The translations under genes and the position numbers were made by a program. Shown piece after piece: positions 39,651 to 62,672 of a stretch of 64,000 bases of DNA. Under the pieces are notes generated by a model, which was not told the origin of the DNA, searched no databases, and saw nothing but the letters and a program-made list of their open reading frames with translations. This DNA is from Actinernus sp. WN-2022 (Eukaryota > Cnidaria > Anthozoa > Actiniaria > Actinernidae), in NCBI GenBank assembly GCA_030867875.1, contig JAOWCC010000577.1, positions 90,749,740 to 90,813,739 on the forward strand, written 5' to 3'. Every line of letters begins with the position of its first letter. The first letter of the stretch is position 1.

Positions 39651-39708
39651 ATGGACAGAAACGCAACACACCTACTTCTTACTGTCATAGCTATTGTTAC
39701 TATCGCCG
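39651..39708 (+). CDS. Receptor exon 1: signal peptide
   Basis: ATG followed by MDRNATHLLLTVIAIVTIAG, a short hydrophobic leader, split in its last glycine codon (phase 1) by a GTGAGT donor. Chosen because phase and leader fit exon 2. The 4.7 kb intron after it holds the large TIR element. Confidence 0.75.
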
Positions 39709-42700
39709 GTGAGTACAACAAAGCATGCCAATGATTCTTCTTTTATTCTTGGTAACTGTCGGACATTCGTCAAATTCCATATTCGTATTTTACCCAATAC
39801 TAGTTACCAGTAGCAGAATTAAGAAAACTGCACGAGCGATATTTTTCTTGGACAGGCGACAGGACTTCCTGAAAAACTGTCGCGTTCTCATCGCGCGGTG
39901 AAAACGACACGTGTGGCGACTCTTGGACAGAAAGTAAATGAGTTGTATTTTTCACGACAATAAGTACGGACTTTCCACACGTGTAGCCACCCTAAAATAT
40001 GTTTCAGTGCCTGCGACGCGACATTAGCATCTCTACCTAATAAGGAGCAAGTACTAAATCGAGGCAATAAACTAGTTGGTCGTATCCGATCTTCCACATT
40101 TCACGACAGTTTGTCGCCCGTGCAGCCACCACCGCTCGCTGGGGACGCGACAGTTTGTCACTCGTGTGGCCACCACCGCTCGCTGGGGACGCGACAGTTT
40201 GTCACTCGTGTGGCCACCACCGCTCGCTGGGGACGCGACAGTTTTCCAGAAAGTCGTGTCGCCTGCGCAGGCAAAAATTCGCTTGCGTATTGTCGCGGCT
40301 TTACCTACGAGCACAGAACTATAAGTGATATTGATTCTTTCAGTCACCAAAGTTTTATCGATGATGAACTCAGGTTGCATGGACAGATTCGAAGCTTGGA
40401 ACATAGAACGTAGATAAACCAAATCCATTCGTAGACAGCTCTTTCAACCAATGTTGAATTTTGGGAAGAGCGAAGCGCAATATGTAAAATATAGCACTGG
40501 ATAAACCAATCGATGTCCATAGTACGGAAGTGCCATGAGAAAATGCGGTAAATTGGAATTTCCAACATTATACTGTATTTTTCCATTGTATGGAAATACC
40601 GTGGAAATTTCTACGGTATTAGCGTGATATTTCAATAGTATAACTTAATCGACTTTTAATAGCCGTTGCTGAAAGGCCTACTCTGGGATCTAAACTCGCA
40701 GCGAGTTAAGGCGAGGTTGTGTGAGTTAAGGCGAGCTAAGGCGATTTAAGGAAAAATACTTAAATTTGTATGTGGCGAGTTAAGGCGAGTTAAGGCGATT
40801 TAAGGCAGTATAAGGAAAAATACTTAAATTTGTATGTGGCGAGTTAGGGTGGGTTAAGGGTGTTTAGGGAAACTCCTTACAAGATTTAGTGTATGTGGTG
40901 AGCTAAGGTGAGTTAAGGCAGGTTTAGGAAATTCACCACTGCCATAATAATATAAAAATTGCAATTATAATTAATATATACATGAAATACAGATCCAATT
41001 AAATAATTATTAAACTTATATGGTAAGTCAGTATAGTCGTTATAAATAAATACCCTATACAGCAGCAATTTAAAAAAGCTGTCTGGTTAATTCTGCATTC
41101 CCCAACACAATCTATTGTTTTACACCATTGCCATATTGGTCTCCAAATCATAAATACATGTACAATTCATTTGTGTTAGGGAATACAGAAATTATATATG
41201 ACCTAGCCAACAATTTTCTGTAACATCTACAAAAACATCTGCAAAACACATCTGCAAACATATACATCTGTATTCATCCCATGTATAATTATCTACATAT
41301 TTATGAATATATATATTAACTATTATATGAATTATAAAATTAAGGGTAAGTCAGAAAAATATCCTTGTCATTTATCTGTCAGACAATTGAGTGGTTAATA
41401 TTGAAATAGTCAGTCGATATTTATTAATGATTAATAGACATACACCTATCCTACTTGAGCACACTGCATGGCTACCTGCACATACATTCTAATGACATAT
41501 ACTAGTAAATATATATGTGCATACATAATACACAATATATAACACATACTCAGTGAATACATAACTGTGTTCATCATTCAATCCATGCAGCCATCCATAA
41601 TCATCCAATTCCACCAATTAAGCCAAACATATATACAACATTAACATACACACATGCATAAACTTAACACATTTATATTCAAAATGATGGCTCAGTTAAA
41701 GAACTATCAGTGACTCAACTCACTCACATGCTAATAATAAAGAAGCACACCTTTAGCTTTAAAGGAAATGACAAATCAATAGCTCAACAATTATTTTAAT
41801 TAAAATAGCTTTGACATTGCATGACAGTTTGGTTTCAACAAGCATAGGTAATTGTTATAGAATCATGAAACAGATTACGTAATTTCAAAGCAAAATAACA
41901 AATAAAATAACAGCTGCTTGTGATTCACATTTTTTAACCAATTAACTTCAACTAACTTTCATTCACAATCATTAATTCCATGTATAAAATTGTAAAAAAA
42001 ATCTTAACATTTGTGGACCATACAAAAACATAGTTTTGCATGTTCTGGTGTTGCCCAGAGGCCAGATTAAGTGTCCCCTCTTCCCTCTACTATTTTATGC
42101 AGATTAGCTAGGTTATATTGTTACGTGTATATTGACTAACCTTTCTTCCGAAACGTTTATATGAGAACAAACAATTTTATCGCTTCCTACTTCGATAGCA
42201 GCCATCTTGGATCCGGGCAATCAATAATCAATCAAACTCCAATCAATATAAAATCGATAATTAGATCAGCTTCGTGTATTCAAGATGGCGGGTGAACGTG
42301 AAGCGCGTGTTGGTAGCACGTACATACTTGGTTTTGGTTTTGGTTTTATACGAAAAGGAACAGAACATTTGCATCATTTCTGGTAAGTAAGCAATTTAAA
42401 GAAACATTATTTTGATTAGCATCAACTAGTTTACTCGGGGATTTTAGCAAACAATGGATTTGGCTCGACGATATATGATATGTTTATAAAAACTTAAACA
42501 TTTAAACAGAAAAGTTATTGCTGATCTTTGGTCAGTAGCAATAAGCTTAAACTTGAAATTATTTCCCGAGTGACGTGACCACAATTGAACAGTGCGAAAA
42601 TAAATGTTGATTTTGACACGAGAAGATAATCAACGTTTTATTTATTTATTTTTATTATAGTCCTTGCAAATAATCATCCAATCAGATGTGTGCATTAGGG

Positions 42701-45700
42701 CCACGTGCAAGCCCAATATAGTTCCCCCAAGCTGTTTATATTATTGTGTTTATTGATTGGATGATAATATTTGTTCGTTATGCATTAGTCAATAATATAA
42801 ATACCTCTTCACCCCAGGCGGTATATACTTCATGGTAGTGTTTCGTTCCATAGAGTCTCCCTGCATAATACTGTAAAACAGTAGAGAAAATAATTATGCA
42901 GGGAGCTAGACTATATGGAACGAAACACTACCATGAAGTATATACCCCCCAGGCCTTGGATTAGTGGGGCATAGCAAAGACATTGCCGGTTGTGAGGGAC
43001 AAGTTTCTACTTTAGGACCAATATGTAACACCCTGGGGTGTTGAGTATCATCTATGTTTTATCATCTCTGCCCCTCAGTACTGGGGCTCAAAATTGTATG
43101 ATAGTATGTGTTCAAGGCATTTTACAGCAAAAGTAGGAATTTTCTTCATATCAACACCCTGGTGGGCAAGGGCTAAAACATATTTTGCCAGGTTCAAAAT
43201 CCAAGTCCCACTAATTTGTAGCCTGGGGAAGGTGGGGATTTACATTGACTGGTGCATAAAAATAAAAAAAACTTTTATAAATATTAGGCTCAACCTTCTG
43301 TCCCGCCATCTCTATACTTAAACATTTTGCCATACTGGACTCAGATAAATCCAATAGTTGGACATCATAAAACAATTAGGTGTTACTACATTTGTGACAA
43401 AGTGTACATTGACTTCAGCCACAGACTACAGTACTAGTGTTTTTTTGACACGTGTGAACACAAATCACATGTATCAACATATTTGTAGACATGAATTTCA
43501 GTGAATGGGGCTCAAATTGTAAGTCATGTTTAGTGATTATCATTTTTAGCTTTGCCAATGAAGGCAATTTAAGGAAAACTTGGGGGGTGGGGACTTTGCG
43601 AGTTAGGGCGTGTTAAGGCGATTTAGGGTGGGTTAAGGTGATTTAAGGAGAATGTCCATTTTCTGGCTTTGTGAGTTAGGGTGGGTTAAGGCGGGTTAAG
43701 GCGATTTAGGGTGGGTTAAGGTGATTTAAGGAAAATTTCCATTTTCTGGCTATGCGAGTTAGGGCGGGTTAGGGCGGGTTAAGGCGGGTTAGGGCGGGTT
43801 AAGGCGAGTTAGGGCGGGTTAAGGCGATTTAAGGAAATTTCCATTTTTTGGCTTCGCGAGTTAGGGCGAGTTAAGGCGAGTTAAGGCGAGTTTAGATCCC
43901 AGAGTAGGCCTGCTGAATACCAGTTTCAGCGGTATTGCAGTTGCAATATAATTAAGTACTAAATTCAAACTGTGTATCTAAATAAGTTGTTTTTGTTTAA
44001 GAGGATGGTTATGTTATGCAAGAACGATGGTTTCACTTATTACATCGAAGTGAGGCATTTGGGTTAACTACCCCTGAAACTGCTATTCGTATACGCCACT
44101 GTAATATATAATATACATGTCATTGATTATACCAGTGTTTATCTTCCCCACCGCCACAGATCAACGCCAGTTTTTACAGGAACTAGTTAGAGTGATTTTA
44201 ACTTGAGAGTTGTAAAACCAAATACAAAACGAATCACAGGAGCAAGTAAAAACACAATGAACCAATCACAACTAAAGTAATTCAGGATTGGTTTTACTTA
44301 CACGATGAAAAGTAAACACTTTCATGGATAACTAACCATTCAAACTTGAAAGCTCTATCCATTGTATGTTTTGTTATCTGCTCTAGCTACCTCTTTTTCG
44401 TTCGCAGGCCAATATCGTAGCCAAGGCACATCCTGTAAAGCCCGTTACTCCAGCTCCTACACTGGTTCATGTATGCCAGTGTCCACGTGTATAGGTGCAT
44501 CATTCCCAGGAATCTGCACCAACCGTCCTACTATTGTCTGCTGTATTCCTGATTCTTCCACAGGAAGCCCGCCAGTGGCTACCCATCTCATTGTGACAAG
44601 GGAGGTTTTTTATAACATTACTGGGGAGTCTCCTCGAACAAGAGCTTTGTATCCGTTTTACGTTAAAGCTCTTGGTGACGCAGGTATATCGACTATTGGA
44701 GAAACAGCCGCATTTACTGCTCAGGTGAGGGCCGAAATTCCCCACAATTCATTAAATGAGAATGATACCTTTTTCCTATTTGTTTGAAAGTTGAAAATTC
44801 TCAAAATACCGTTAAATCCCCTCCCCCCATTTATAAGCTCTCCCGAATATAAGCCCGTCAGTCTGGTAACATAAAATCCCTTTCGGTTATAAACGCCCCC
44901 TTTTACCAAATCGGTCCTAATCTCTTGATATTGACTGGGGGAAAAGGTTTATTATCGTAATGTTGCATGCTTCAATACAAGTAAAGCAAAAACTCATTAT
45001 AAATACTACTCAACAAATTGTATATGGATAGTGAAAGGCTAGTGTCAAAAGCGTTGACGTATAGTTTCCTGCTAAAGCATTCCCAAACGTTTTTCCCCCT
45101 CCCGGTTATGTTTCTATCAAGTTCCGTTAACATCATCGATTATTGTTTCTTAGTTGTAACAGTTGTTGTTGTTTTTGTTTGTCAGATTCTTTACGAGACC
45201 TCGGACATGATGTTGTCAGAGGAGACAACATCAGCACTGCAATACGAAAACAGTGCATCGCTTGGCAACACTCAGACGGGAGACGGTGAAAAATACATAG
45301 GCCGTGGGTTTTTACCTTTAAGAGGACGACATATGTATGAACTGGTCGGAAAGAGTATTAATGAAGACTTAGTAGGTAGGGATATGAGCTTAATTTGGTC
45401 TGCAATGCAGATATTCAGGTGTGATTTTTTATCTGGCAGGTTTGAGCTTGGATTGCTTGTTTTTTAACCCATAACCATGATTGTGCATCATAGCTAACTG
45501 CTATTCACTCTTTTCACCTGGTGGCAATCTTGGATTCAAAGCGAGGCAATCCTTTGTTTTTGCCAGGGTAGCCTCGTTTTCACAATTCCTCACTACGAGG
45601 CTAACCTGGCAAAAACAAAGGATTGCCTCGCTTTGAATCCAAGATGGCCACCAGGTGAAAAGAGTGAATTCACACCAGCCGGACAATATAAACCCGACGA

Positions 45701-48700
45701 GGCACTAGCAGGGATCTGGGTTATGTCAGGATCCCATTACCAGGAGCATCCATCTCCCATAATAGGTCTGTGAGTCAGCGTATGACCGGATTGAGCTATA
45801 TTTAGAACAGATCTGATGGGAGTTCTCGTGGCGACACTTTGAGAATCCAATCAAACCATAGTAAGAACAATGCAGTGTTATTAAACACCTCAGAGAACAA
45901 TATATCATTCTCAATCGCGATAATTACGGCAAGCGTGTACGGATCGCAGCGGAGTCAGAAGGCAGACACCCAGGAAACATGTTCTAAAAATAGCTCAAAC
46001 CGGTCATACGCTGACTCACTGGTAGAGTATATATGGACGCTCCTGGGTAGGGTTTTTGTTCCATTGTAACGTCTCTGGAATATGTTTCCTAACCCATGGC
46101 CAATTAACGCCCTAGCTCTAGACGCCAATTATTGTGTTTTCTAATAATTTGTAACGACAAGAACGCCATTCCCCGTTCTCCAATACCGAATCCCCATTCT
46201 CCGTTTAGTGACATCCCAATGAATATAGCAGGCTATACTGATAAATATCATTCAGTACAAAATAATAATTATTGATGGAGTACTCTTTGTCGAGATCTTA
46301 GCTGTAATGCACATGTGTACGATAACATGTAACCGTTCCGTTTACGTGCGCAAAACTGATTAAAAATCATTTGATGATCATTGACAAGTATTATCTGTTG
46401 CTATATCTTTCACTTGAAGATCCTATGATACATATTCATGTATTATGTTTTTCATATAACATTGAGAGTCTTATGTCGCTAAATTCTTAAAATCATTTAA
46501 TATTACCTGAAACTGATCTAGCGGGCAATCAGCGTTATTCAGTTATTTATTTATTTCATGCAAGTCATATGTTTTCTGCTTCCCGCAAGTCAGGCTAACT
46601 TGGATTAGGTGTAAAAACCAAGGCATGGTTTTGCTTAACCTGCGAAAGCAGCCACATCTCTGTGATTCCCCCCAAAGAAACGTTCGCGGGACGAGCCAAA
46701 AAATTCCATTCTGATCACCTGAATCCGGGCAAAATATGTGATTGGTCAATCACCGATCCTTTTGTCTTATGTGCATAAATTAAATTATCAACAAACTTCG
46801 AGTACAAAGCGAGCGTAGGGAAAGGTAACTGTGATTCTCATTGGATGTTTTTAAACGTTGTGTCGAAGAGATGCGCCCTGCTTTTGGCTTGGAGTCCCAC
46901 ATCTGACTGTTGGCAAGTGACTCCAGCCTTGTCGAAGCCAAAAGCAGGGCACAGCTCTTTGACACAATGTTTAAAAACATCCAAAGAGATTCTTTCCCTA
47001 CGTTCGCTTTGCACTCGAAGTTTGTTGATAATTTTAATTTTTGCACATAAGAAAAAGGATCGGGTGATTGACCAATCACATTTTTTCCCGGATTCCGGTC
47101 AAAAATGACGTCATCAGTATGGCATTTTCGGGCTCGTCCCGCAGACTTTTCCTTGCGGGAATCCATTCGGAGCGAGCACAAAGTTGCGGCTGCTTTCGCA
47201 AGCTAGTCTTTACTAAGCATTTTAATTTTGTTTTCTTTCAATTGAAATTTCAGATGCGCCTGAGCTAGCAGCGATGCCTTCTATCGGGTTCATTGTGGCG
47301 TCCTGGCTGTGGAGACATGGATACCAGTCAGCAGATGGTTCTACTCCACCTACTGGCCCATTGTCTAAATATGCTAATGAGACAAAGTATGGATTTGCAA
47401 TGTTATCCTATGCAATTGCTCAGGACGGCAAAATACTGGCAAGAAAACGATTTTCATTTTGGTCTAAAACAATCAAGGTATAGTGATATCATTATTATCA
47501 TTTCCCTCACCTAGTAATAGTTTAATAGGAACGGAATTCGAAAAGTAGGATTGAGCTTGCCAGTGAGAAGGGAAAAGTTGGGATGCACGTATTAATTAAG
47601 GAGCAACAAAAACGCACAACAAAAGACAAACTTAGCTTTTAATATAGGACTTCTCATGTTCACCCATCTTTCCTCCAAACGCATGCAAATGAAAATGAAA
47701 ATACCTAGAATTTCCAAGGGGCCTTGGGTCGTCTTTTAAAGTGTCTATGAGCTCAAGCCAGACATCATTTCTTTGGGCGCAGTAAAGTGTTTTAAATCTT
47801 GTTCAACCAGTTTTGGACGATCTATTGGCGTAGTACTGCTATAAAAAGCATTACAAATCCTTGAAATGACGTCATTTAAGGGCGTTATGCTAATGAGTTG
47901 AACAGGAATTGAGCTATACCATTGAATGCCTTCATTTATACAGTTGTTTTCAGGTGTCAGATATTTTATACTTACAATTTGAGAGAATGATATTTTAATC
48001 AGTGGAGCTGACATAAAAACAGAGGAAAAGGAACCGTATAAGTAGGTTATCCCTAAAATGACGTCATTGAAATTCGATTCCTTATTAATCGAAATTGGCA
48101 GACTATAATTATATTTTTCAAATGTCGATCATTTTGTTTCCCAGTTTGACTTTTAAATCAAAGACAACTGGCTATGGCTTACAGGCACTTTAAATCTCAC
48201 ATGATATATATTCATTGGTCATTATTTCTGTAACCCTTCATCCTCGATTGCACTTTCTATTAAAGAGTTTGTGTGACCGCGGTGTGACGCCTTTATCTTC
48301 GCCGTCCGGGCCGGACACAGTTTAGTTTCAGAAATTTTCATATGAACTAACGAACCTCACGCACATGTGGGATGGTTCAAATCAAAGCAACTGTGCAAAA
48401 TGAACTAACAAACTGTGTGTAGAGGTAGTCTTCAAGAAAACTTATCATTTCAATCAAGCGTTGAGGGAGGAGACTGTTTTTATTCTATAAACTACAGTAT
48501 TTTCCAAGGACTTCCAGCTCTGAGAAAAATCGTATCTGAACACCGTAAAAATACGATAATTTTACGTGTGTGTATATAGCCTTTCAGCTGAATCAGCGAT
48601 TTCACGTCACGCGCTTAACCCTTCTCTGCGCTCACTCGTGAGATGTCGAGTTAAACACTCGAATATAAATTCCATATCTTCGTGCGCCTATGTATTAATA

Positions 48701-51700: not shown

Positions 51701-54700
51701 TTGCGTGAATGGAACAAGCCTTGTAAACTAAAGTATAGTAAGGCGCCTGGCTCATTTAACGTAAAGAGATCTAACCTAATAAAATGTTTTCTAACGGGGA
51801 CAACAGTTTACACAAAATCTATTCTATTCACACTACAATCCTAATATCCACTTCCTTAAATGTATACATATGAGCCCAAATATATTGTATCATTAAAATC
51901 GATTCTAAATCAAATAAATGAATTAAAGGTAAAATATTTCCTGATTTGAGTGTTGCGTCTATGAGTTATAAAAGTTTATATTTCGAATATGTTAATGCAT
52001 GACGTTAAACAGGGAATAATTTATTATACAAAACCTTGCTGATGAAGATAAATGATATTTTATAAACATCCATGTTATATTTTAAGCTTTTATCAGTGAT
52101 TTTACCCCCCCAAAAAAATCTAAATCAGAAGTATATTTCATTTACAAAGAGAATGAAATGACAGTAAATTCCCTGTTTGACGTCACGTTATTAGCGTATT
52201 CGATTGCTGTCGGCTGGCCACTGGTCAGAGGTCACTTCCTTTTCGTGGCACAAAAATGTCAAACTCTCTACAGAAAGATTTAAAAACTATTCAATGTATA
52301 AATATTTTGAGGAAAAGACTTTCAACTTTCTCTTATTCGGGAATATTGGTATTTTTTTAAATAAGTAGTAATCATAGGTATATGATAGTAGCTATCGTTA
52401 GGCCTTTCCAGATTGCGCTCGGCAACTTTTTAGCGCAATTTGGCTTTATGAGCAACTTTTTGGCCACAGAGCAACTTCTGGCAACTTTTTGGGAAACACG
52501 CCATTTTTTAGCCTTTTTGAAGCAAATTACTGGATTTTTTGTTTTATATTAGCAATTTCAAGTTCTCTTGGCAACAAATTCTTTCCCATCTACACTAAAA
52601 CTGGTGATTTCATCTTTGACTGGGTAGCCTGTGGACTGTGATTGGGTAGCCTGTGGAATTAGTTAATGACTAATTCAAATAATTTTTTTCAATTCAAATT
52701 TTGTAATGAATTTAATTAATTAATCAATTAATTAACATTACTAGAATTCATTACTAGAATTTATTCTAGAAGTTGAGTAAAGCCTAAGACAGATTATAGA
52801 AATAAATTAATTAATTAATTAATTGATTAATTAATTTTATATTTATATAATCTGTCTTAGGCTTTACTTAATTTCGAGAATGAATTCTAGTAATGTTAGC
52901 CAGAGAAGCAGATATTATAGAGAAACGGGTATTATAGGAATGAACATTGGTTTAACACATTAATAAAAGTACGTTTGTTTATTAATTATTTGTCCAATTA
53001 GTGACTTTTATTCAACAGAAAGTTGCCTTAAACCAGTTAAAACTATAGTCATTTAGTTACAAATGTTAATTGGGAAGCAACTGTTATTAAAATAAAGACC
53101 AGTCTATAAAAAAACATTTGAGCAACTTTTTAAAATATGGTAGCACCTTTTTTATTTTTGAGCAACTTTTGAGCAACATTTTGGATTTGGAGCAACTTTT
53201 TAGCAACTTTTGGGCATTTTTGGGAGCAACTTTTTAGCTTTTTGGGAGCGCAATCTCAGTGGAAAGGCCTAGCTATCATATTCTTGTCAAAGTTAATAGT
53301 TATTGGGTTTCCTTTTTCTCAGTTTTTAGATTGTTATCATATATATATACCTCTTATTAACCGAGTACCCCATCCGTACAATAACTTATGGAACAAGTTT
53401 GTTCCCTTTTTTATGGCGCAAGAGCGAAGCGCTTTTTGAACGTGGGTTTTTGAATGTTTTGAAATAATTAGAGCCTGGATATTCTTTGCAATGAGGTAAA
53501 AAGTTACCTTTACTTCGGGGAATAATTAACTAGTTTGATATCAACTGTTATTTTCATTCCTAGCACTGCTGCTGTTGTTAATGCCACCAAGTTAACCTGG
53601 TACATCAGTGGAAGCACTTATACGGATTTAGCCCTACAAATGGCACGTGACCAACTATTCGGTGATACGCTCAGTGGAGTAAGACCAGGTAACCTCGGAA
53701 TATCTCGCATCTTGGTGCTTCTTACCGACGGGAAAACGACCAAGGGGACGGAAAGTGTCCGAGAACCTTCGGAGGCTCTTCGTACCGAAGGTGTTACCAT
53801 ATTCTCTGTAGGGATAGGTTCGGGTGTGAAGATAAGTGAACTGAATGAAATAGCAAGTAACCCGGATGCAGACCACGTGTTTCTGTCTAATTCTTATAAC
53901 AGCGTGTGGAGAATAAGCAGTGGCGTGCAACATGCATCGTGTCGTGGTAAGATTTAGCTTTAAGCCATGGCCAAATGGAATTGCAAGTCATTGCAAGTTT
54001 CCGACTTGCGTTGGACTTGCGTTTCGTTTGGCCACTTGCGATAGCGTAGACTTTGACCGTGCTCAAATTTGCACGCAACTTGACGTTTAATTTTCGCCAA
54101 TGGAAGTTGACTGCAAGTCGAAAGTAGTAAAGAAAATCATTTATCAATGAAATTTGTGAAATTTAAGGGGGACTTTAACTAAACCGTATAGAAATTACTT
54201 TTCACGGCTAAACGTGCGACCGAACTTGCGAGTCCGTTGGGCTACCTGTCCGCAAGTCTGAGCGCAAATTTTAATTTCGAAACTTGCATATAGAATTCAA
54301 TCTAAATTGTTCCAACAGCGTTATCATTGGAAGTCGAGAAATGGTATAAGGTTTTATAGAGTAAAGAAAACGGAGTTTAACGTGATAGAATGAAAAACCA
54401 TAGTAATCATATTTTCAAATACAAAATTATATCAATGAAAATCGATGAACCCGAAACTAATCAACTGATATTCTCTTACAGAGCCTGCACTTCTGGACGT
54501 AGGAAAATCAATCTTATTAGAAATTGATAGGAAGGCCAAAAAGTTCTATAAATACCGTACCGATTTACTTGAGGAGTTATCTATACTAAAAATAACACCA
54601 GCTGAAGGGGATGTACGGATGTACTTGTCGCTTAGGGACAAAAACCCACGAGAAAAACAACTAGAATTGTGTTCAATAAATGCGACAACAGCGCAAGCTA

Positions 54701-57700
54701 GGAAAGAAATATTCCTGATTAGGGAGATTGTCAACACAACATTCTGCTCAGGACAGAGCTCTGGAGGCATGAGAGCATTAAGATTAAAAAGGTTTCACCA
54801 ATCAAAGATAGCCTGTATCAAGGGATGTTCAAAAGCGTACGTTTATGTCAGTATAGAGGGACTGAAGGTAGTGAATAGGTTCAACATATCACTGGTAAAC
54901 CTTACTGACTCCGGTATCAGTATAAAGGAACTATTATGGAATGACCGTCTTGGTGAGGTGAGTTGAGTTGCCTTTTTTATAAATAACTGTTACCAGGGTC
55001 CCATTACCAGGAGCGTTGCTCCGGCCCAAATAGAACGTATGCAGGCTACGTCTCGCGTCTCGCGTCTCGCGTCTCTCGTACGTCTCTGCTCTCTCATCTC
55101 TCGTACGTCTCTCGTACGTCTCTCGTCTCTCGTTTCTCTTTTTAACGTTCCCAGATCCCGACCGTTCGCCAACAACTAGACTTTTCGGCTCGCTTGCTGA
55201 AAAGGCTATCACATGTTTCCACATGCATATAACTCACTGAATATTAATATGTTCTCTTTGCTTAGAGCAATGCAACATTCACGTTTCCTCTTAAAAGTGA
55301 AGTCTACGTAGGTAGCGCCTTGGCTGTCATGGGTACCATGGCAACAATAGCAGCCTACGTCACATTATCGTAAGTACCATGAGCATTTGTCTTCCTGCCT
55401 GTTATGTTATTGTTCAAGAGAAATGTCATGTTATTTAAACTTGGAGAACATTGTGAGACCTCAGCAGCAAAAGAGCAGAGTTGTGTTGTGAATGTATTGA
55501 TTGTTTGTAATAATTACTAAGTCCAGGTTATCAACAGTTATCATCAATTTATGTCCACTGGTATAATTAACAATTAGACCCGCAGCCCGAATGGGCTACG
55601 AATCAATATCCCATAAGGCGCAGCCGAATGGGCGGCGAGAGGTTTAATTGTTTTAGTATCAAGTAACTATTCGGACAGTAGAAAATAATAGAAAGAAACA
55701 AATTGAAGTTGAATAAACGTTATTATTTCGTGAAAATGGCTATAGTAGGGTAGCCAATCAGAATGCAGGATTTCTAATAGTCCCTAGTTAGTTTATACTA
55801 ATAACTGTGATACAACTTTTAAAAAACAAAGTTAAAATCTACTTTCTCTATTTTAATTAACCTATTGTTATAGTCGTTATGTTTTTTGTTGTTTTTACGA
55901 TAACATTTATACTAACAATTATATTTACTCCAGTTGCGCAGGGAAGACATTAGAAATAAAGTGTTCGTCGAAACTTAAAAAGAAAAAGAAAGAAGAAGAG
56001 AATCAAAATATTCAAAAAAGAGGCAGCGGTTTAGTAAATGGCGGAGGAGGAGGTGACGAAATCGATACAACGAGCCCTCATAATCAGCCCTCGAGATCAA
56101 AACCATCTAAACCGAATAAACATGCAAGCCTTGTGTCTTCTATGATCAGCGCGCTAAAGAGGCGAAGAAGCAGCAGCAAAATGGAATTATTACCTAAAGA
56201 TAACGGACATGACAATGCGGCATTTGCATTAGAGGGGATTGATGTACAGCGATCTAGTTCAGATGATGTGGTTAGTGGCCAAAGACGTACTTCAGGAAAT
56301 CCTGTTTGTAAGAACAACAGCTCTATAGGAAAGGGCAAACTTAAAGTTTCGTCAAGAAATATCGGGAGAAATGGCGGAAGTAGGACTGAGAGAAAGGGTA
56401 GCACTGTGAAAGGTGTTGGAGGGAAAGAGGAGAAGGACGTTATGAGAAATTATGAAAAGGGACGGAGTAAGAATGCAAATAAAAGTGGTAGAGAATTGAG
56501 GGGCGTCAAAAGGGATGAGAAAGGGCACAACATTGGTAATACATTGGTTCATGAAAATACGACGAAAGGTAATTCATTGGAATGCCCAACTTTTACAGAT
56601 ACTCAAGTTCGAAAAATGAGTTCTGAGGATCACGAAAAAGTCACGAGGTCTCTTAACAAACGTTCGCTGAATGACGTCACGACTAACAGAAGTTTTTGCT
56701 GTTACTGTGGAATGCAGCTTCCGGACATGTTGAAATTTAACCGTAAAACTAAAGAAAAAAGATCGTCTGATACTAATTACGAGAGAGGGAAGCCACAGCG
56801 ATTTCGGATCACAAAGGCTAGAGTTCTTACTGTAGCGTGTCCATGCTTCACTGTTTTTGTTCCTGAAGATGACACAGAGGAAAATGAAGATGAACAAACA
56901 AACCGGTGAGTCTACAGGAAAGTATTAATAGCAGTGCGACTACAGTAACCGGGGCCACTTAGACAACAAGAACCAATTAAATCACATTGCAGAACAAAAA
57001 CAAAGCATTCCAACTTACGGTTACTTGGGCCAATCAGTGTCGAGTAGAAGACAATTAAAAGCATTCCAACTTACGGTTACTTGGGCCAATCAGTGTCGAG
57101 TAGAAGACAATTAAAATCATTCCAACTTATGGTTACTTGAGCCAATCAGTGTTGAGTAGAAGACAATTAAAAGCATTCCAACTTACGGTTACTTGGGCCA
57201 ATCAGTGTCGAGTAGAAGACAATTAAAAGCATTTCAACTTGCTCGAGCTTCGATCGAGTAAAAGGCAAATTTGGTGGCCTCGTTCTGAAGTATTTTAAAT
57301 TAACAAAATCACATGACTATGCTAGGATTCGTATTTTGGAATGCTTTGTTTTCGTTTTCCCCCGGTTTCAGCTAACAGTAGCCGCACTGTAATAGAACAG
57401 TCAGTTAAACACAGAAAAGAACTGGAACTCTACTGCAGTATAGAAATCATTTTTATTAACAACCTCCACAATATTTCTATAATATATTGGAACTGGACAA
57501 AACTATCGAAATTTAAATTTCCAACTTTTTTCTAGAATATTTCCAAGACATTTCCATACTATGCTTGGGAGAGGACCAGGCATTTTTTTTATACGCATGC
57601 GCAATGCGTCCTAACATACCAGCGCTGGAAACGTCAGTTGTACTGACCTGGCTTCCTTGTCACTTTATAGATAATATAACCCACTTGCCTTTATGGAAAC

Positions 57701-60700
57701 TAGTTATCCATTCTAAAAAAATATATCGTGATGATCATGAAGAAAGTAATATTAATTCTTATTTACTGCATCCAGATGTCCATAACCATAAGTCTCGATA
57801 TATCATACTGCCCATCAGTATACGATATATTCTATTTTCAGAAACGATTCTCTCTTAATCGATACTATCCAAGCGTGTTGCACCTAACGGCAAACTGAAG
57901 TAATTCTGATTGGTCCAATGACATAACTAATTTCGTGTTCATATATAAACCAAACCGGCTGCCATTGTTTTCCCTCACGAATGTAGTTTGAGCGCCGTTC
58001 TAAAAATAGATTATACCGTAAACTGATGGACCGCATTTCATTGAGACTTCTGGTTATGGACTTCAGCTGCATCTGAATAAGATGCGTGAATATGTTTTGA
58101 AGTACTATAATAAAGTTTGTTTTTTCGTATATTTTACCATTTCAGGGAGAAACGATTTGAAAGAGATATGCATATCAGCCAATCATTCTGTATTCTACTT
58201 GCTCAGCTTATATTTGTCGTTGGTATACACGCGAGGAACAGTGTGGTAAGCAATAGAGGAAACTATTATTATTAAATAAATTAAGTTGAATAAGTCCGAC
58301 AAAAAATGGTTATTTTCAGTTCACCCCAAATGTGCACTTTATTCATATCTCACCTGTCTGGTAACAATGGTATCAGAGCGAGGCTAGTTGCCCATAGATC
58401 GCAAAATGGGATCCGGTCAGAAATGTGTAGTTTCTGTCGTATAACGAAATTAACGTTATTTTCCGCCATCGACTGTAGATTTTTCTCTTCCTGCATGTGA
58501 CAAGCTTGGTCACCAGGCCTCGCTTAGATGCCTTTATGAATAAGTGACCAATAGATTTGCTTTCCCATTCATCGGCGATTTGCTGACTGACTGTTTCCAG
58601 TCAAGCATTTCCCATAGGATCACGAGCGCATTGGTTATTGAAGTGATCTATCAGCACGTGACTTTGTCCTGCAATAGGCCTATTCAGTATTTTCCTTTTA
58701 ATATGGGGCAGTAATTATAAATCCAAGCTTAAACCTATCCACATTTTACAAAAGCGAGCGCTTCGAGTCATTACTTTTTCCGATTTCAAAACCCCAAGCA
58801 AACCTTTATTCAACAAGCTTAATATTTTAAATATATTTCAAATAGTGGACGTCCAACTCGGTGATTTAGTGCATAGGCATTCTATCAAACAACTTCCAGA
58901 TATATTTTCGAGTTACTTCAACGACGTGTCCCTTATTCATAATTATAACACTCGCTCTAAATCAAATAAGAACCTTTTTTTGCCACGACAAAATCTAAAC
59001 TATGGCAAATTCGGTGTTAAATATGCAGCCGTCAAAATTTGGAACGACATTCCAATAGAGATTAAAAACAGTTCTTCAAATAAACATTTTAAGAAACACT
59101 TCAAAAAACATCTAATTTACACACCGTGATTCATATTTGTGTACAAAGCTAATTCTCTTGTACATGAATAGAATGAACTCAGTATCGTATTTCAACTATA
59201 AAATTATCTAATTATAAATACAGTAATTGTGTGCCTATCCAGCCATCTTAGATTAATCATAAATAATAAATAGGGTGCAGGAGTTTATAATTAACCCCTC
59301 TGGGTTGTATCTCTTGTATCCTTCACAAACTTTTCTTTATGTATGTATATTTCCTATTGTGTGTTTTTGTGTGAAATAAACGAACCATTAAACCAACCAT
59401 TGAACCATTGATCAATGTTCACCTGTTAAATACTGTTCTTCTAGGTTGGTTGCGCGTTTGCAGCAATTTTCATGAACTACCTTTACCTTGTGGCTATGGC
59501 ATGGCTCATGCTTGAGGCCTACTACTTGTACTCTTATGCTGGCAAAACACTGAACGACACAAGAAGTACTTACCGTAAACGTGTGCGGAAATATTACGCT
59601 GCTGCTTGGGGTGAGTAATATGTGCATTTATTACATAAATGAGAAGTCCAAGGACTACGTCAAAGCTAATACAACGTTAGTTATATTGAATACAAATTCT
59701 GTCAATGATAGTAGCAAAGTGATAGATAGTGAGTAGCGACAAAGCCAGTTTTCAAAAGCAAAACAATGGCTGTCAAGTCGTCAATATGTCAAAACATATT
59801 TTTGTTTCAGTTTAAAATTGAGTTTATACTGGTTGGTTTCTACTAAAACAATTAGACTATTCGCTCTCTGTTTTTATGCCTGATAGTTGAATTGGAGCTA
59901 CACTCCTCGTCACATATCGGCCTATAGAAACTTCAAGCTCATAGTCTAATTGTTAATTACAAAGCGCGTGCGAGTCACTTTAAGCTAGGCGTATGTACGC
60001 TGAATGGGTTGAAGCGTGTTTTAAAGGAGCTGTGTTTTATGTTCCGGGCTCCGCGGAACAAACTTAGTTTCAGTAGTTTTCATATAAACTGACTATCCTG
60101 ACACACGTGCGGGATGGATGAAATCAAAGTAAATGTGCAAAAATGATTAACAAACTGTGATCTAGCTAGTATTAAAGGAAAGTATTGCATATCCTTTCAA
60201 TCAAGCATTAAGGGAGGGGAGTTTAACTGTTTGAAGCCAATTAACAGCCAGCAATCGTACATTGAGTTTTACAATAGTTCCTTTTGCTAGAATACATAAG
60301 TTCCCTAGATAAGCTACCCAGCTTTTGGAACAAATGTAAAGAATACATATTGTTAAATAATAATAAAAGGAACATTGAGTCCATAGATATGCGCAAAACC
60401 ATGACACAGTGCCTTTAAAGTATCGATTACCTTTTTAATAGTTGTCGTAACTGCTTCGTCCGAACCCTTAACAGTCCACATCCAATGAGGGAAATCTCTA
60501 CCTACTTTAGCTGACCCTTCTCATATGGCGGCCATGTCGAGTCCCAGGAGGATGCCAACCTTTGTTTGTGCTAGCCTAACCTCAGTTCGAGGCTGACCTT
60601 ACAAAACCTATTGTTTCTAGCCAACATGACCGCCATGTCAGAAGGTTCAATGGGTAACATTACCCTGTCCCTATACTATTGATATTTAACTTGCATATGG

Positions 60701-62672
60701 CAGTGAAAGATCAAGACATATGATTACAACAGAGAGCTTAGTATTCGTCTTCTACCCGGGGGGTTACTCACAGGATTTTTGGGTAGGGGTGTGCTGCGGA
60801 GACCTATCCCAGACCTAAAAATGCCGTTTACCATACCCCATTCCAGACTTGAAGCAAAAAATATATACCTTATCCCAGACTTGTGAATCGCGCGCATTGC
60901 GTTGCATTTGCATTATCGATCAAACGTAATATTGTGATGTTTACACAGGTCAGCATGACATTAGATACGAAAGAGTCCAGATACCGAACAGTTTTTAATT
61001 AAAATTACACTACGAAAGCTGTTGTTTTGTTTTAATATGGTATTTTAAGCTGTAGCTAGTGTGGGCGATAGAGCGCCAAGCATGGCGTCAAAGATAAGTA
61101 TATCAAAATCCATACCCTTTCCCAGACCAAAACCGTAAAAAGATACTCTATCACAGACCTCGGCAGCTCAAAAACTATATATACCCTATCCTGCGGCACA
61201 TACCCGTAAGCCCATATAAGGGAGTAACCCCCCCCCCCCCCCCCGATCTTCTACTTTCATAAACGTGAGTGCATTTGTATTTTTAATACCTGAAGCAATC
61301 TCATGTCAACACTGATATTCTTCTCTAGGGCTCCCTCTTATCGTCGTTGTTGTCACTGCAATAAAGCCAAGAAACTACAGCAAGAATCCGCAGTGAGTTC
61401 CAGTTCATCATGTTGTTACACGCAATATTTTTTCTTTTCACATGTAACGCAATATATACGATAGAAAATCATTACAAGTTGCTGTAGCACTCGCGGATCC
61501 CAGACCGTTTCCACCGGTCAGATTTTGTCCATTTGCTTTTGGTAGTCTATTAAAAGGAAATATTGCATCGAAAACGCTGGAAATAGCGTTTCAGAGCTTG
61601 TAAATTTCAAAATTTCCCGGGGGAGGGGGGGAGGAAACGCATGCCTCCAGACATGCCCCCCCCCCCCCCCCCCCCCCCCCCAGGATCTGGCGATTTCAGC
61701 ACTCGTTTGGCTTTTACCTTCGTTTCGCTCGGAAAACGGTCAGATTTTCCCTGGATCCGCACCTGTGGGTGGCAGACGTTCGCAACTTTGTTTCAATTTG
61801 CAATGCGATCGGATGTTTTCCCCTCGTAGCGTTGCTAAATGTACATGAGTCCGTGTCGCAAAACGAAAAATCTACAACTTGTCTTGCAACTGGCGTTACC
61901 TTGAAAGTTGTAAGAAAAATTGCCTCAAGTAACATGTCGACCTTTAATAAAGCGTTCGGCTTCATAGACTGAGCTTTGATTCCCGATCGTTGTGAAGTGA
62001 TTTATTTGGATTTCACCTTAATGCAGTTTGTTGGTAACGTGATTTGAGTTATAAACGAGTTATATTGCTGTATTAGTCTTTAGATAATAAAAGTGCGCTC
62101 TAATTGGTCGATATCGACTTGTTCTCGTTTCGACATCTGATGATCTTTAATAGGACAGTGGAAAATGACGAAAATAGTAAGCACTTGTCACCAGATCATT
62201 TCACTAATCTGTGTTCAATGCACCGTCTATTTCAGCTGTTGGATTGCCATGACTGGAGCGTTGGACCTTGCTGTCTCTTTACCACTTGCATCCATTGGAA
62301 TGGTAAATAACTTTGTATAATTTTCCTGATGTCAGAACTTCTGCGATACTTGTCTGAATATGTAGTGAATGGGTGGCAAGGATTAAAACGCTAAAGAGCC
62401 TGAGAAATAGAGATTTATGATTGACAGGCGCTATTGCATAATTGTACGCCCCGCCCACAATGGAATAGATTTCTGACAATGAAAAAACTTCCTTTCACTA
62501 CATTAAAAGTGCCGGTATAATACCAGTTTTTCCTGTCTTTGTTTATGTTGTTTTGACGTTCGTTCTATTTCTAGGTTCAGTTGCTTCTGCTTCTTCTGAT
62601 GCTTAAAGCTATAATAACTTACAAGAAATCAACAAATGCTGAAGAAAAGGATATGAAGAAAGAAATACTCAA
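39651..62672 (+). CDS. GH19-chitinase-like / VWA adhesion-type 7TM receptor, 15 exons seen, 3' end beyond window
   Basis: Exons: 39651-39708, 44408-44724, 45186-45375, 47254-47477, 49226-49373, 50401-50605, 53564-53946, 54482-54957, 55266-55369, 55934-56905, 58146-58245, 59445-59610, 61329-61392, 62236-62302, 62575-62672. All borders are GT/AG and all phases match (3572 nt, 1190 aa so far). Order of parts: signal peptide 1-19; CLIP-like 29-65; GH19-like about 74-263; CLIP-like 269-311; VWA about 319-495; unrecognised N-glycosylated domain about 509-667; TM1 678-702; giant ICL1 703 to about 1034; TM2 about 1036-1056; TM3 from 1062; TM4 about 1116-1126; TM5 about 1141-1173. The 7TM part follows adhesion/secretin receptors: MHISQ before TM2, cysteine 1062 at TM3, CW at 1137-1138 in ECL2. 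No GPS cleavage motif is seen. A chitin-, glycan- or matrix-sensing receptor is inference. A chimeric model from two genes is possible but unlikely, given the continuous phases. Confidence 0.85.
40100..40250 (+). repeat. Tandem repeat, 44-bp unit, about 3 copies
   Basis: 'cagtttgtcactcgtgtggc' and 'accgctcgctggggacgcga' recur at about 40108, 40151 and 40195. GC-rich compared with its surroundings. Lies in receptor intron 1. Confidence 0.85.
42150..42400. promoter_or_regulatory. Candidate bidirectional start region inside the 3.2 kb element
   Basis: CAAGATGGCGGG on + (ATG 42285) and CCAAGATGGCTGC on - (ATG 42205) face away from each other 80 bp apart. On +, an open stretch of 33 codons runs to a strong GTAAGTAAG donor. 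On -, about 22 codons run to GTTAGT. CAAGATGGCGGC-type motifs are the YY1 initiator-linked site in many animals. Downstream exons were not found. Confidence 0.35.
42825..42948. repeat. Palindrome, arms about 48 bp
   Basis: 'tatatacttcatggtagtgt' pairs with its exact inverse at 42921-42942, continuing through 'ttcgttccata' to the 'ccctgcataat' core. Nested in the 3.2 kb element. Confidence 0.85.
44215..44345 (-). repeat. Dispersed repeat just upstream of receptor exon 2
   Basis: Reverse-complement relative of 18455-18655. It ends about 60 bp before the exon 2 acceptor. Confidence 0.6.
44408..44724 (+). CDS. Receptor exon 2: CLIP-like module and start of GH19-like domain
   Basis: Six cysteines in the order C-x11-C-x5-C-x8-C-x7-CC (residues 29-65), the layout of arthropod CLIP domains. 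Then a GH19-type N-terminal helix region running to AAFTAQ, which lines up with the 'AF.AQ' before the catalytic acid of GH19 enzymes. Confidence 0.75.
45186..45375 (+). CDS. Receptor exon 3: GH19-like catalytic core
   Basis: Begins ILYETSD; glutamate 129 lines up with the GH19 acid in the HET motif, with Tyr for His. YEN (glutamate 146), SLGNTQTGDG and KYIGRG follow, matching the bacterial-type 'YEGR.DLGNTQPGDG..F.GRG' segment. After GRG the usual I-Q-L-T/S becomes FLPLR, so Gln and the water-binding Ser/Thr are replaced by Pro 169 and Arg 171. Confidence 0.8.
45504..45669. mobile_element. Near-perfect palindrome, 166 bp
   Basis: 'attcactcttttcacctgg' to 'ccaggtgaaaagagtgaat', with arms of ~68 bp pairing through 'gcgaggcaatcctttg' and a short unpaired loop. 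Receptor intron 3. Confidence 0.9.
45769..46021. mobile_element. MITE with 28-bp TIRs
   Basis: 'gtgagtcagcgtatgaccgg' at 45771 and 'ccggtcatacgctgactcac' at 46001 are perfect inverse ends. Related to 10195-10395. Flanks carry 'accaggagc' and 'gctcctgg' blocks. Confidence 0.85.
46607..47225. mobile_element. Large palindromic MITE abutting exon 4
   Basis: Arms of ~300 bp pair, for example 'gtgattggtcaatcac' with 'gtgattgaccaatcac', and 'acttcgagt.caaagcgagcg' with its inverse, around a centre at about 46905. The right end lies ~30 bp from the exon 4 acceptor. Confidence 0.8.
47254..47477 (+). CDS. Receptor exon 4: C-terminal part of GH19-like domain
   Basis: Completes DLV-DAPELA, the GH19 'DLv..PelA' step, then SWLWRHGY, matching the 'A.W.W...g' helix. 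The family's T..ING segment is not evident, a further sign of divergence from active enzymes. Phase 1 in, phase 0 out. Confidence 0.75.
48270..48910. repeat. Dispersed repeat family 3, copy 1
   Basis: 'tttagtttcagaaattttca', 'cacatgtgggatggttcaaa', 'caatcaagcgttgaggga' and 'cagccatcgatcgaacatt' recur in the same order at 60040-60420. Receptor intron 4. The tail corresponds to the unit of the 29.8 kb minisatellite. Confidence 0.7.
49226..49373 (+). CDS. Receptor exon 5: second CLIP-like module
   Basis: Seven cysteines, including C...RGTC.....TC....EGIC...... .ECC, so the same six-cysteine spacing as exon 2 plus one early extra cysteine. A whole module in a single exon (phase 0 in, phase 1 out) beside GH19. 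Confidence 0.7.
49615..50090 (+). repeat. Long dispersed repeat family 6, copy 1
   Basis: About 470 bp, matching 63105-63545 in reverse complement along almost the whole length, with a palindromic end block ('ggaaagttatgtaatacggc' and inverse). Confidence 0.8.
50095..50340 (+). repeat. Dispersed repeat related to 25200-25420
   Basis: 'gctctgattggtcgat' then 'agatgtacag.ttacgtcacatg'. A distal part with 'gtgacgtcacaacgtgacg' resembles 25860-25900. Confidence 0.55.
50401..50605 (+). CDS. Receptor exon 6: N-terminal half of VWA domain
   Basis: VDLVFIVDSSGSVG gives the DxSxS MIDAS motif (Asp 325, Ser 327, Ser 329). The second strand, RIALIRYSS, follows. Phase 1 in, phase 2 out. Confidence 0.85.
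51203..51467. mobile_element. Palindromic MITE, about 265 bp
   Basis: 'cagtttcgtattcgaa' (51206) pairs with 'ttcgaatacgaaactg' (51447). Arms ~110 bp run through 'gtacgcagggttagc' and 'gaagttaaacattcat' to a short centre. Confidence 0.85.
52400..53270. mobile_element. AGGCCT-ended TIR element with subterminal minisatellite
   Basis: Left AGGCCTTTCCAGATTGCGCTC and right GAGCGCAATCTCAGTGGAAA followed by GGCCT form imperfect TIRs. Both sides carry 'gagcaactttttgg'-type units in the same orientation. The centre is a palindrome (about 52725-52920) with ATTA repeats. 'tagctatc' occurs 3 bp outside the left end and immediately at the right end. Confidence 0.65.
53564..53946 (+). CDS. Receptor exon 7: C-terminal half of VWA domain
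   Basis: SGSTYTDLAL supplies the MIDAS threonine (399), and ILVLLTDGKTT the distal aspartate (436). GVTIFSVGIG and ELNEIAS are typical last VWA strand and helix. The metal site is therefore complete, so adhesion or ligand binding is plausible. Confidence 0.88.
54482..54957 (+). CDS. Receptor exon 8: unrecognised extracellular domain before TM1
   Basis: 159 residues with four or five cysteines and several N-x-S/T sites (NATT, NTTF, NISL, NLTD). It occupies the place of the GAIN domain in adhesion GPCRs, but I find neither the paired Trp/Cys pattern nor the H-L/x-T/S cleavage site of a GPS. A diverged GAIN or a new beta-rich domain are both possible. Confidence 0.7.
55025..55140. repeat. CGTCTCG / CGTCTCT simple repeat
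   Basis: Irregular run of CGTCTC units in receptor intron 8. It creates arginine- and glutamate-rich frames on minus that are not genes. Confidence 0.85.
55266..55369 (+). CDS. Receptor exon 9: TM1
   Basis: SNATF, then a hydrophobic helix of ~22 residues around ALAVMGTMATIAAYVTL. Ends phase 2 in a serine codon. Confidence 0.75.
55934..56905 (+). CDS. Receptor exon 10: giant first intracellular loop
   Basis: A single open exon of 972 nt giving ~324 polar residues, rich in Lys, Arg, Ser and Asn. It starts with a KKKKKEEE cluster, has a G-G-G-G run, repeated basic stretches and, near the end, SFCCYCGMQL and an acidic DDTEENEDE stretch. No known domain. In class B and adhesion receptors this loop is normally about ten residues. 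Splice phase fits exons 9 and 11 exactly. Confidence 0.72.
57004..57235 (+). repeat. Tandem repeat, 56-bp unit, four copies
   Basis: 'cattccaacttacggttac' plus 'gccaatcagtgtcgagtag' repeats at 57007, 57063, 57119 and 57175, highly similar. Receptor intron 10. Confidence 0.92.
58146..58245 (+). CDS. Receptor exon 11: TM2
   Basis: MHISQSFCILLAQLIFVVGI lines up with the 'IH.NLC.SL.LAELLFLIGI' TM2 of adhesion receptors, including the conserved His (1035). Phase 2 in, 0 out. Confidence 0.85.
58330..58545 (+). repeat. Dispersed repeat family 2, copy 3
   Basis: 'ctttattcatatctcacctg', 'ctggtaacaatggtatcaga', 'cgccatcgactgtagattt' and 'gacaagcttgg' blocks shared with 31070-31310 and, in part, 4688-4900. 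Confidence 0.7.
58719..59400 (+). mobile_element. LINE 3'-end fragment
   Basis: An open stretch to 59129 gives the C-terminal tail of CR1-like reverse transcriptases (PIHILQKRALRVITFSDF, NYNTRSKS, KIWNDIP). It ends in an 'aaccattgaaccattga' tail. 5'-truncated, as usual for LINE copies. In receptor intron 11, same strand. Confidence 0.87.
59445..59610 (+). CDS. Receptor exon 12: TM3 and second intracellular loop
   Basis: VGCAFAAIFMNYLYLVAMAW then LMLEAYYLY. The cysteine, the AW, and the acidic-tyrosine motif at the helix end match adhesion/secretin TM3. A basic loop (RKRVRKYY) follows. Confidence 0.88.
60000..60420. repeat. Dispersed repeat family 3, copy 2
   Basis: Same block order as 48270-48910. 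Includes 'cagccagcaatcgtacattga' and 'gtccatagatatgcgc', inverse of the minisatellite unit. Confidence 0.7.
60755..61250. mobile_element. Palindromic element with GGGGGTTACTC ends
   Basis: 'ggggggttactca' (60769) and 'gggagtaaccccccc' (61221) close an element with 'ctatcccagac' blocks on both sides. Layout resembles the split element at 10595-11275. The right end runs into a poly-C tract. Confidence 0.65.
61329..61392 (+). CDS. Receptor exon 13: TM4
   Basis: GLPLIVVVVTAI, the short TM4 starting GLP as in many adhesion receptors, followed by KPRNYSKNP in the second extracellular loop. Phase 1 in, 2 out. Confidence 0.8.
61656..61682 (+). repeat. Poly-C tract
   Basis: About 25 consecutive C residues in receptor intron 13. 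Length is likely unreliable in assembly. Confidence 0.9.
62236..62302 (+). CDS. Receptor exon 14: ECL2 and start of TM5
   Basis: HCWIAMTGALDLAVSLPLAS, the conserved CW of ECL2, which would disulfide-bond to Cys 1062 of TM3, then TM5. Phase 2 in, 0 out. Confidence 0.82.
62575..62672 (+). CDS. Receptor exon 15: end of TM5 and third intracellular loop
   Basis: VQLLLLLLMLKAIITYKKS then a charged loop (EEKDMKKEI), typical of ICL3. Ends phase 2 at a GTAAGT donor. TM6 was searched for downstream to 64000 and not found. Confidence 0.8.

Follow-up and report, generated by a model that had tools for sequence, protein, structure and literature searches.

Within a window of 64,000 nucleotides from the genome of the cnidarian Actinernus sp. 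WN-2022 (90.75-90.81 Mb on a contig of 190 Mb; assembly 1.39 Gb), the forward strand carries a multi-exon gene whose predicted product combines GH19-type and VWA domains with a class B seven-transmembrane (7TM) module. Rebuilt base by base, the portion of the gene lying in the window comprises 15 exons (39651-62672) and starts with an ATG at 39651; the introns are all GT-AG, the phases are compatible, and a single frame of 1190 amino acids (aa) runs through them without a stop, as had been proposed in the initial annotation of this DNA. The conceptual protein matches the Pfam models for VWA (131.4 bits), 7tm_2 (85.2 bits), and GH19 (27.4 bits; cut-off 25.5). Exon 1 (39651-39708) supplies the start codon and a hydrophobic N-terminus, likely a signal peptide. 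The 15 exons recognized initially stand, but the gene does not end with them: by using the homologous protein of Oculina patagonica on the next 40 kb of the contig, we located exon 16 (75587-75713, coding for transmembrane helix [TM] 6), exon 17 (78442-78588, TM7), and a tail exon from 79181, all given in window-equivalent coordinates downstream of the window. The phases of these exons match, and the gene thus runs ~16.7 kb beyond 62672 to an in-frame stop at 79354, yielding an extended model of 1339 aa whose end could be shifted by further splicing. No second copy was detected by tblastn (E up to 0.01) in the 303.5 kb around the gene, and an exon-by-exon search of the same genome with PF00182 returned no match, a result that is uninformative as 14 control genomes were equally silent. 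Intron 1 contains a ~3.2 kb insert (40677-43908) that by eye is bounded by inverted copies of CCTACTCTGGGATCTAAACTCGC, with GTTAAGGCGAG-like repeat arrays inside both ends and GCTGAA near each side, and looks like a non-autonomous DNA transposon. Intron 11 contains an open reading frame (ORF) of 155 aa (58662-59129) resembling by eye the C-terminal end of a non-long-terminal-repeat (non-LTR) element protein, with no Pfam match.

Three protein searches recovered at least nine matches among 7995 scored candidates, nine among 1569, and at least three among 7988, respectively, with the third, seeded with region 500-1180 of the Oculina protein P0002, adding only an eel ADGRB1 among the matches listed. 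Three of the proteins among the matches listed carry the same ectodomain order. P0002 (1449 aa) is a full receptor that shows this order along its whole length, and P0001 (820 aa), also from Oculina patagonica, follows it up to TM1 and part of the ensuing loop. The latter is likely a tandem copy of P0002, because its locus tag adjoins that of P0002 and the contig is equal in size. P0010 (621 aa, encoded on one 5.4 kb contig) has the order cysteine-rich repeat, GH19, cysteine-rich segment, VWA, and sandwich domain, and lacks a hydrophobic helix at the threshold used. Exons 2-7, 9, and 11-15 are each 40-52% identical to P0002, exon 8 is at 26%, and exon 1 reaches 46% across 13 residues. The local scores of exons 2-15 against P0002 each exceeded those from 200/200 shuffles of that protein; only the score of the short exon 1 (19 aa) was reached, by 20/200 shuffles, and is not above chance. 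With 14/15 exons conserved, chance ORFs can be ruled out. No break separates exons 8 and 9, which are contiguous in Oculina too, and the stability of the domain order despite this divergence argues against an accidental fusion. Together with the profile matches, this supports the initial proposal that one gene joins the GH19-type, VWA, and 7TM regions.

The ectodomain begins with a cysteine-rich repeat in exon 2 (44408-44724; 40% identity to P0002), located at ~44434-44544 (aa 29-65) and followed in the same exon by the beginning of the GH19 domain; a second repeat occupies ~49268-49369 in exon 5 (49226-49373). Both have six cysteines ending in CC, with the spacings Cx11Cx5Cx8Cx7CC and Cx8Cx5Cx8Cx7CC, respectively; the spacing of repeat 2 is identical in both Oculina copies, whose repeat 1 is without some of the cysteines. 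The initial annotation called these modules CLIP-like, a label that we drop: neither repeat matches any Pfam family up to E 10 (short cysteine-rich pieces can escape profiles), and their spacing is nearer to the rusticalin repeats, described as Cx6Cx6-7Cx8Cx7CC (PMC6339383), with equal last spacings (x8, x7, CC) and differing first ones (x11 or x8, x5). A survey reports 382 proteins with such repeats, most of them fungal and 69 from animals, and bacterial wall-hydrolysing domains in 63 of the 124 that combine the repeat with another domain (PMC7379824); such repeats are also described in the placozoan lysozyme PLys (PMC12855814). Hence, the modules appear to fit better as cysteine-rich repeats of the kind that accompany wall-cutting enzymes, and, given this association in the survey and in PLys, the combination of repeat and GH19 looks, by analogy, like a ready-made antibacterial effector piece.

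The GH19 match itself extends to P0001 (25.8 bits) and P0010 (41.0 bits), whereas NCBIfam lists no GH19 family for the four proteins. Against PHROGs, the window domain scores 70.5 bits with endolysin family 181 versus 23.0 bits with the chitinase family, and the top three hits in the PDB are annotated as an N-acetylmuramoyl-L-alanine amidase (9hnv, 9.7e-16), a putative bacteriophage protein (7r6s), and the PWe2 endolysin, followed at ranks 4 and 5 by an ancestral and a plant chitinase, below which endolysins and chitinases are mixed. The PHROGs scores and the PDB ranking thus suggest that, among the entries of these two collections, the domain is nearest to phage endolysins. Of the initial chitinase-like (GH19) assignment, the family is retained and the plain chitinase label is replaced by an endolysin- or lysozyme-like one. 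In a database of the family, the endolysin branch is described as mostly bacterial, probably from phage or prophage regions, with animal members placed under a chitinase group (PMC8547705).

The active site of the GH19 endolysin PaGH19Lys is described as comprising H50, E51 (the base), E60 (the acid), Y103, Q127, T129, I187, N188, and R197 (PMC12329726). We compared these with 160 relatives, namely the best 80 of 231 prokaryotic and the best 80 of at least 597 viral loci, found with patterns that allowed Q or P (the genome scan also allowed T, R, or I): E51, E60, and T129 are conserved in 160/160 of them, Q127 in 158/160, N188 in 157/160, R197 in 121/160, and H50 in 116/160. In the window protein, exon 3 (45186-45375) encodes the GH19 core, including both catalytic glutamates (YETSDMMLSEE) and the GDG..GRG motif, and exon 4 (47254-47477) the C-terminal part. 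The residues at H50, E51, E60, Q127, T129, N188, and R197 are Y, E, E, P, R, N, and L in the window; Y, Q, E, P, I or V, N, and L in both Oculina copies, which have additionally lost the GDG glycines; and H, E, E, Q, T, N, and R in P0010, which keeps all site residues checked. In a tree of 58 rows, 54 of them drawn from the 160 relatives, the receptor copies form a group of three with 100/100 support, whose stem carries 3.13 changes per column; P0010 joins them at 94/49, a placement that is not firm. The simplest story would have an enzyme-type ancestor like P0010, followed by erosion in the receptor line that went further in Oculina than here. Judging from these residues, the window GH19 is likely a former wall-cutting domain with an eroded site.

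The VWA domain is distributed over exons 6 (50401-50605), with the DxSxS (DSSGS) element of the metal-ion-dependent adhesion site (MIDAS), and 7 (53564-53946), with its Thr and Asp; together they form a phase 1-1 module. The metal site is intact in 4/4 proteins, and the VWA call of the initial annotation holds. Exon 8 (54482-54957) encodes the juxtamembrane domain that was earlier set apart as unknown; it is now modelled, weakly, as a likely beta-sandwich.

The membrane region begins in exon 9 (55266-55369) with a linker and TM1 and, past exon 10, continues through exon 11 (58146-58245, TM2), exon 12 (59445-59610, TM3 and the beginning of TM4), exon 13 (61329-61392, TM4), exon 14 (62236-62302, the second extracellular loop with CWI and the beginning of TM5), and exon 15 (62575-62672, the end of TM5 and the third intracellular loop). 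Leaving out exon 10 lifts the 7tm_2 score of the window exons from 85.2 to 96.0 bits and moves the model start from 39 to 7; on joining exons 9 and 11-17, the match rises to 100.2 bits and spans positions 8-248 of the 250 in the model, a complete domain. The gain on omitting exon 10 leads us to reject TM1 as a separate single-pass helix, and phmmer aligns the exon 9 helix with TM1 of ADGRD1. The latter is the closest solved 7TM structure for both the window (70.9 bits) and the Oculina (92.4 bits) proteins, and the window helices show the TM3 cysteine, WGLP, and HCWI. GAIN and GPS are the defining parts of adhesion G-protein-coupled receptors (GPCRs). No model for either was matched up to E 10 in the window protein, P0002, P0001, or the isolated exon 8 piece; a scan for H-x-T/S found it only in TM2 (window) and in the VWA domain (P0002), and the two Oculina proteins each have a C-W pair in their exon 8 domain, which the window protein lacks. 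The stretch before TM1, where a tethered agonist would lie, is by eye poorly kept between the window and Oculina. The adhesion-type label given initially is accordingly kept for the helices only, and the best reading of these comparisons would be a GAIN-less, class-B2-like receptor. Function without GAIN or a tethered agonist has been reported for the class B2 receptor BAI3 (PMC13322242).

Since TM1 belongs to 7tm_2 by score and by the ADGRD1 alignment, exon 10 (55934-56905; 972 bases, 324 codons, phase 2-2) lies within the 7TM domain, between TM1 and TM2, and adds ~325 aa to the first intracellular loop; Oculina has 259 aa at the same position. Neither this placement nor the extended loop figured in the initial annotation. 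Common to the loops are a Lys-rich start and a block H.SLVSSMI (HASLVSSMI in the window). Their local score of 88 was reached by 1/500 windowed and 0/500 full shuffles, and a score of 80, obtained without the first 35 residues, by 0/500. Given the 2-2 phase, skipping of exon 10 would leave a loop of the usual length. Were intron 10 retained, the product could instead be a long-tailed single-pass receptor, because an in-frame TGA is met at once when the exon 10 donor is left unspliced. P0001 of Oculina stops after 118 residues of the first intracellular loop, the same region as this putative single-pass form.

Based on these observations, we propose, with a probability of about one in two, that this gene encodes a receptor of the adhesion/secretin kind, its ectodomain made up of two cysteine-rich repeats, an eroded endolysin-like GH19 domain, VWA, and a probable beta-sandwich, and that the receptor relies on a retired enzyme to sense glycan of the bacterial wall and would act through G proteins. 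Under this proposal, an animal wall-cutting effector (repeat plus GH19) would have become joined to the VWA, sandwich, and 7TM regions, and the GH19 domain would then have lost turnover while keeping its putative glycan cleft. The GH19 head may bind peptidoglycan (or chitin) fragments or whole bacteria, with the VWA domain holding the matrix or a partner; a pull or rearrangement might reach TM1 by way of the juxtamembrane sandwich, with no cleaved tethered agonist involved, and G proteins would be engaged by the seven-helix module. Exon 10 could furnish a long, basic, probably disordered docking platform in the first loop. The coupling of glycan recognition to G proteins, as suggested initially, is an inference. 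A fuller evolutionary version, which we offer only tentatively, would have a phage-type lysozyme module with its cysteine-rich repeats taken up by an animal lineage, losing its cutting activity and becoming the sensing head of a GPCR, in which the sandwich replaced switching by GAIN and a tethered agonist and the loop carries a skippable 324-codon signalling platform.

Several points weigh against this proposal. The one-gene case rests on gene models on both sides, P0002 being itself a gene model, and the full order is found in only one named species besides this genome, Oculina patagonica. The GH19 match of P0002 (24.5 bits) falls just below the Pfam cut-off, and the text available for the repeat survey does not name GH19 and lacks the word 'chitinase' (PMC7379824). 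The window copy retains both catalytic glutamates, and so may not be dead; the changes at H50 and R197 say little, because bacterial relatives vary there too, and the 160 relatives were themselves found by short patterns over the same stretch. The sandwich model of exon 8 is weak (predicted local distance difference test [pLDDT] 58.8, from four sequences), and a model of the whole ectodomain, made for P0001, failed (pLDDT 37.5). Finally, only 22% of the aligned positions of exon 10 are identical in Oculina, and composition-corrected BLASTP of the two loops alone gave E values of 41 and 79, i.e., nothing significant. As the shuffles are beaten and yet BLASTP is not significant, the presence of a long loop is common to both receptors, with most of its sequence having drifted.

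A receptor for matrix or mechanical adhesion is conceivable, if unlikely: here, matrix or adjacent cells would be bound by the VWA domain and a collagen-binding-like sandwich, leaving the GH19 remnant as a mere spacer, structural or protein-binding, that does not engage glycans. Against this, the GH19 domain and repeat 2 are kept as well as the VWA domain (48-50%, exons 3-5), and the window copy still has the GDG..GRG stretch along with both acid residues. We judge it quite improbable that the GH19 domain is a tethered active lysozyme, which would still cut peptidoglycan in the window copy and let the receptor sense its own products; the catalytic pair, invariant in the relatives, the kept GDG and GRG, and the fully preserved site of P0010 favour it, but Q127 and T129 are replaced at nearly invariant positions, and both Oculina copies of the same architecture have E51 changed to Q and the GDG glycines lost. 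That two products are joined only on paper, namely a secreted or single-pass protein with the repeats, GH19, and VWA and a separate 7TM gene, is very improbable, for although P0001 stops in the first loop, read-through at exon 10 terminates at once, and no hydrophobic helix was detected in P0010, a single model covers the entire P0002, TM1 forms part of the 7tm_2 fold and follows on from the ectodomain in P0002 and P0001 alike, and intron 8 measures 308 bases.

Among the papers listed from the open-access literature, covered mostly by titles and abstracts, no described receptor with this combination was found, in keeping with the novelty claimed for it initially; the parts are known, and what sets the receptor apart is how they are combined, a joint that lacks GAIN, and an extended first loop. 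Animals recognize the bacterial wall through TLR, NOD, and PGRP pathways, and a GPCR with a lysozyme-derived head would, if our proposal of a retired wall-cutting enzyme is right, link wall glycan directly to G-protein signalling. For anthozoans, it is an open question how symbionts, food, and pathogens are distinguished. It would further be a clear case of a bacterial- or phage-kind enzyme becoming a receptor, and of a class B receptor working without GAIN and with a first intracellular loop of several hundred residues.

Elsewhere in the window, three cysteine-rich ORFs (12436-12723 and 18148-18513 on the reverse strand, and 24120-24530 on the forward strand) resemble prokineticin colipase-type domains; a weak Prokineticin match of 18.4 bits, below the cut-off of 21.6, is limited to the first of them. 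They also resemble Dickkopf domains, and may form a cluster of genes for small signalling proteins that are secreted. On the reverse strand, 15803-17746 holds a non-LTR retroelement in several frames, with endonuclease and reverse transcriptase pieces, adjoined by ORFs at 15042-15799.

Among known systems, the receptor shares with adhesion GPCRs (class B2, ADGRD1) the 7tm_2 fold, the TM3 cysteine, the loop CW, WGxP, and a long multidomain ectodomain, while differing in that no GAIN or GPS was found, a likely beta-sandwich stands at the membrane instead, and the first intracellular loop holds the exon 10 insert; the combination of GH19 with cysteine-rich repeats and VWA was not met in the portion of the adhesion GPCR literature examined. 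For that sandwich, the SIDT1/SIDT2 ectodomain and clostridial collagen-binding (PPC-like) domains offer a comparison at ~10% identity or less, with no sequence-level match and low model confidence. Rusticalin and the placozoan PLys likewise place like-spaced cysteine-rich repeats, rusticalin's differing in the first two spacings, beside a bacterial- or phage-type wall hydrolase in an animal; however, the rusticalin-like proteins are predicted to be secreted and PLys is a digestive lysozyme, whereas here the pair is fused to VWA and 7TM domains. With the GH19 endolysins (PaGH19Lys, 9EOI; SPN1S, 4OK7; PHROG 181), it has in common the sequence family and, in the window copy, the catalytic glutamate pair and the GDG..GRG core, but here the domain belongs to the ectodomain of an intron-containing membrane receptor, with Q127 and T129 changed and, in Oculina, E51 lost.
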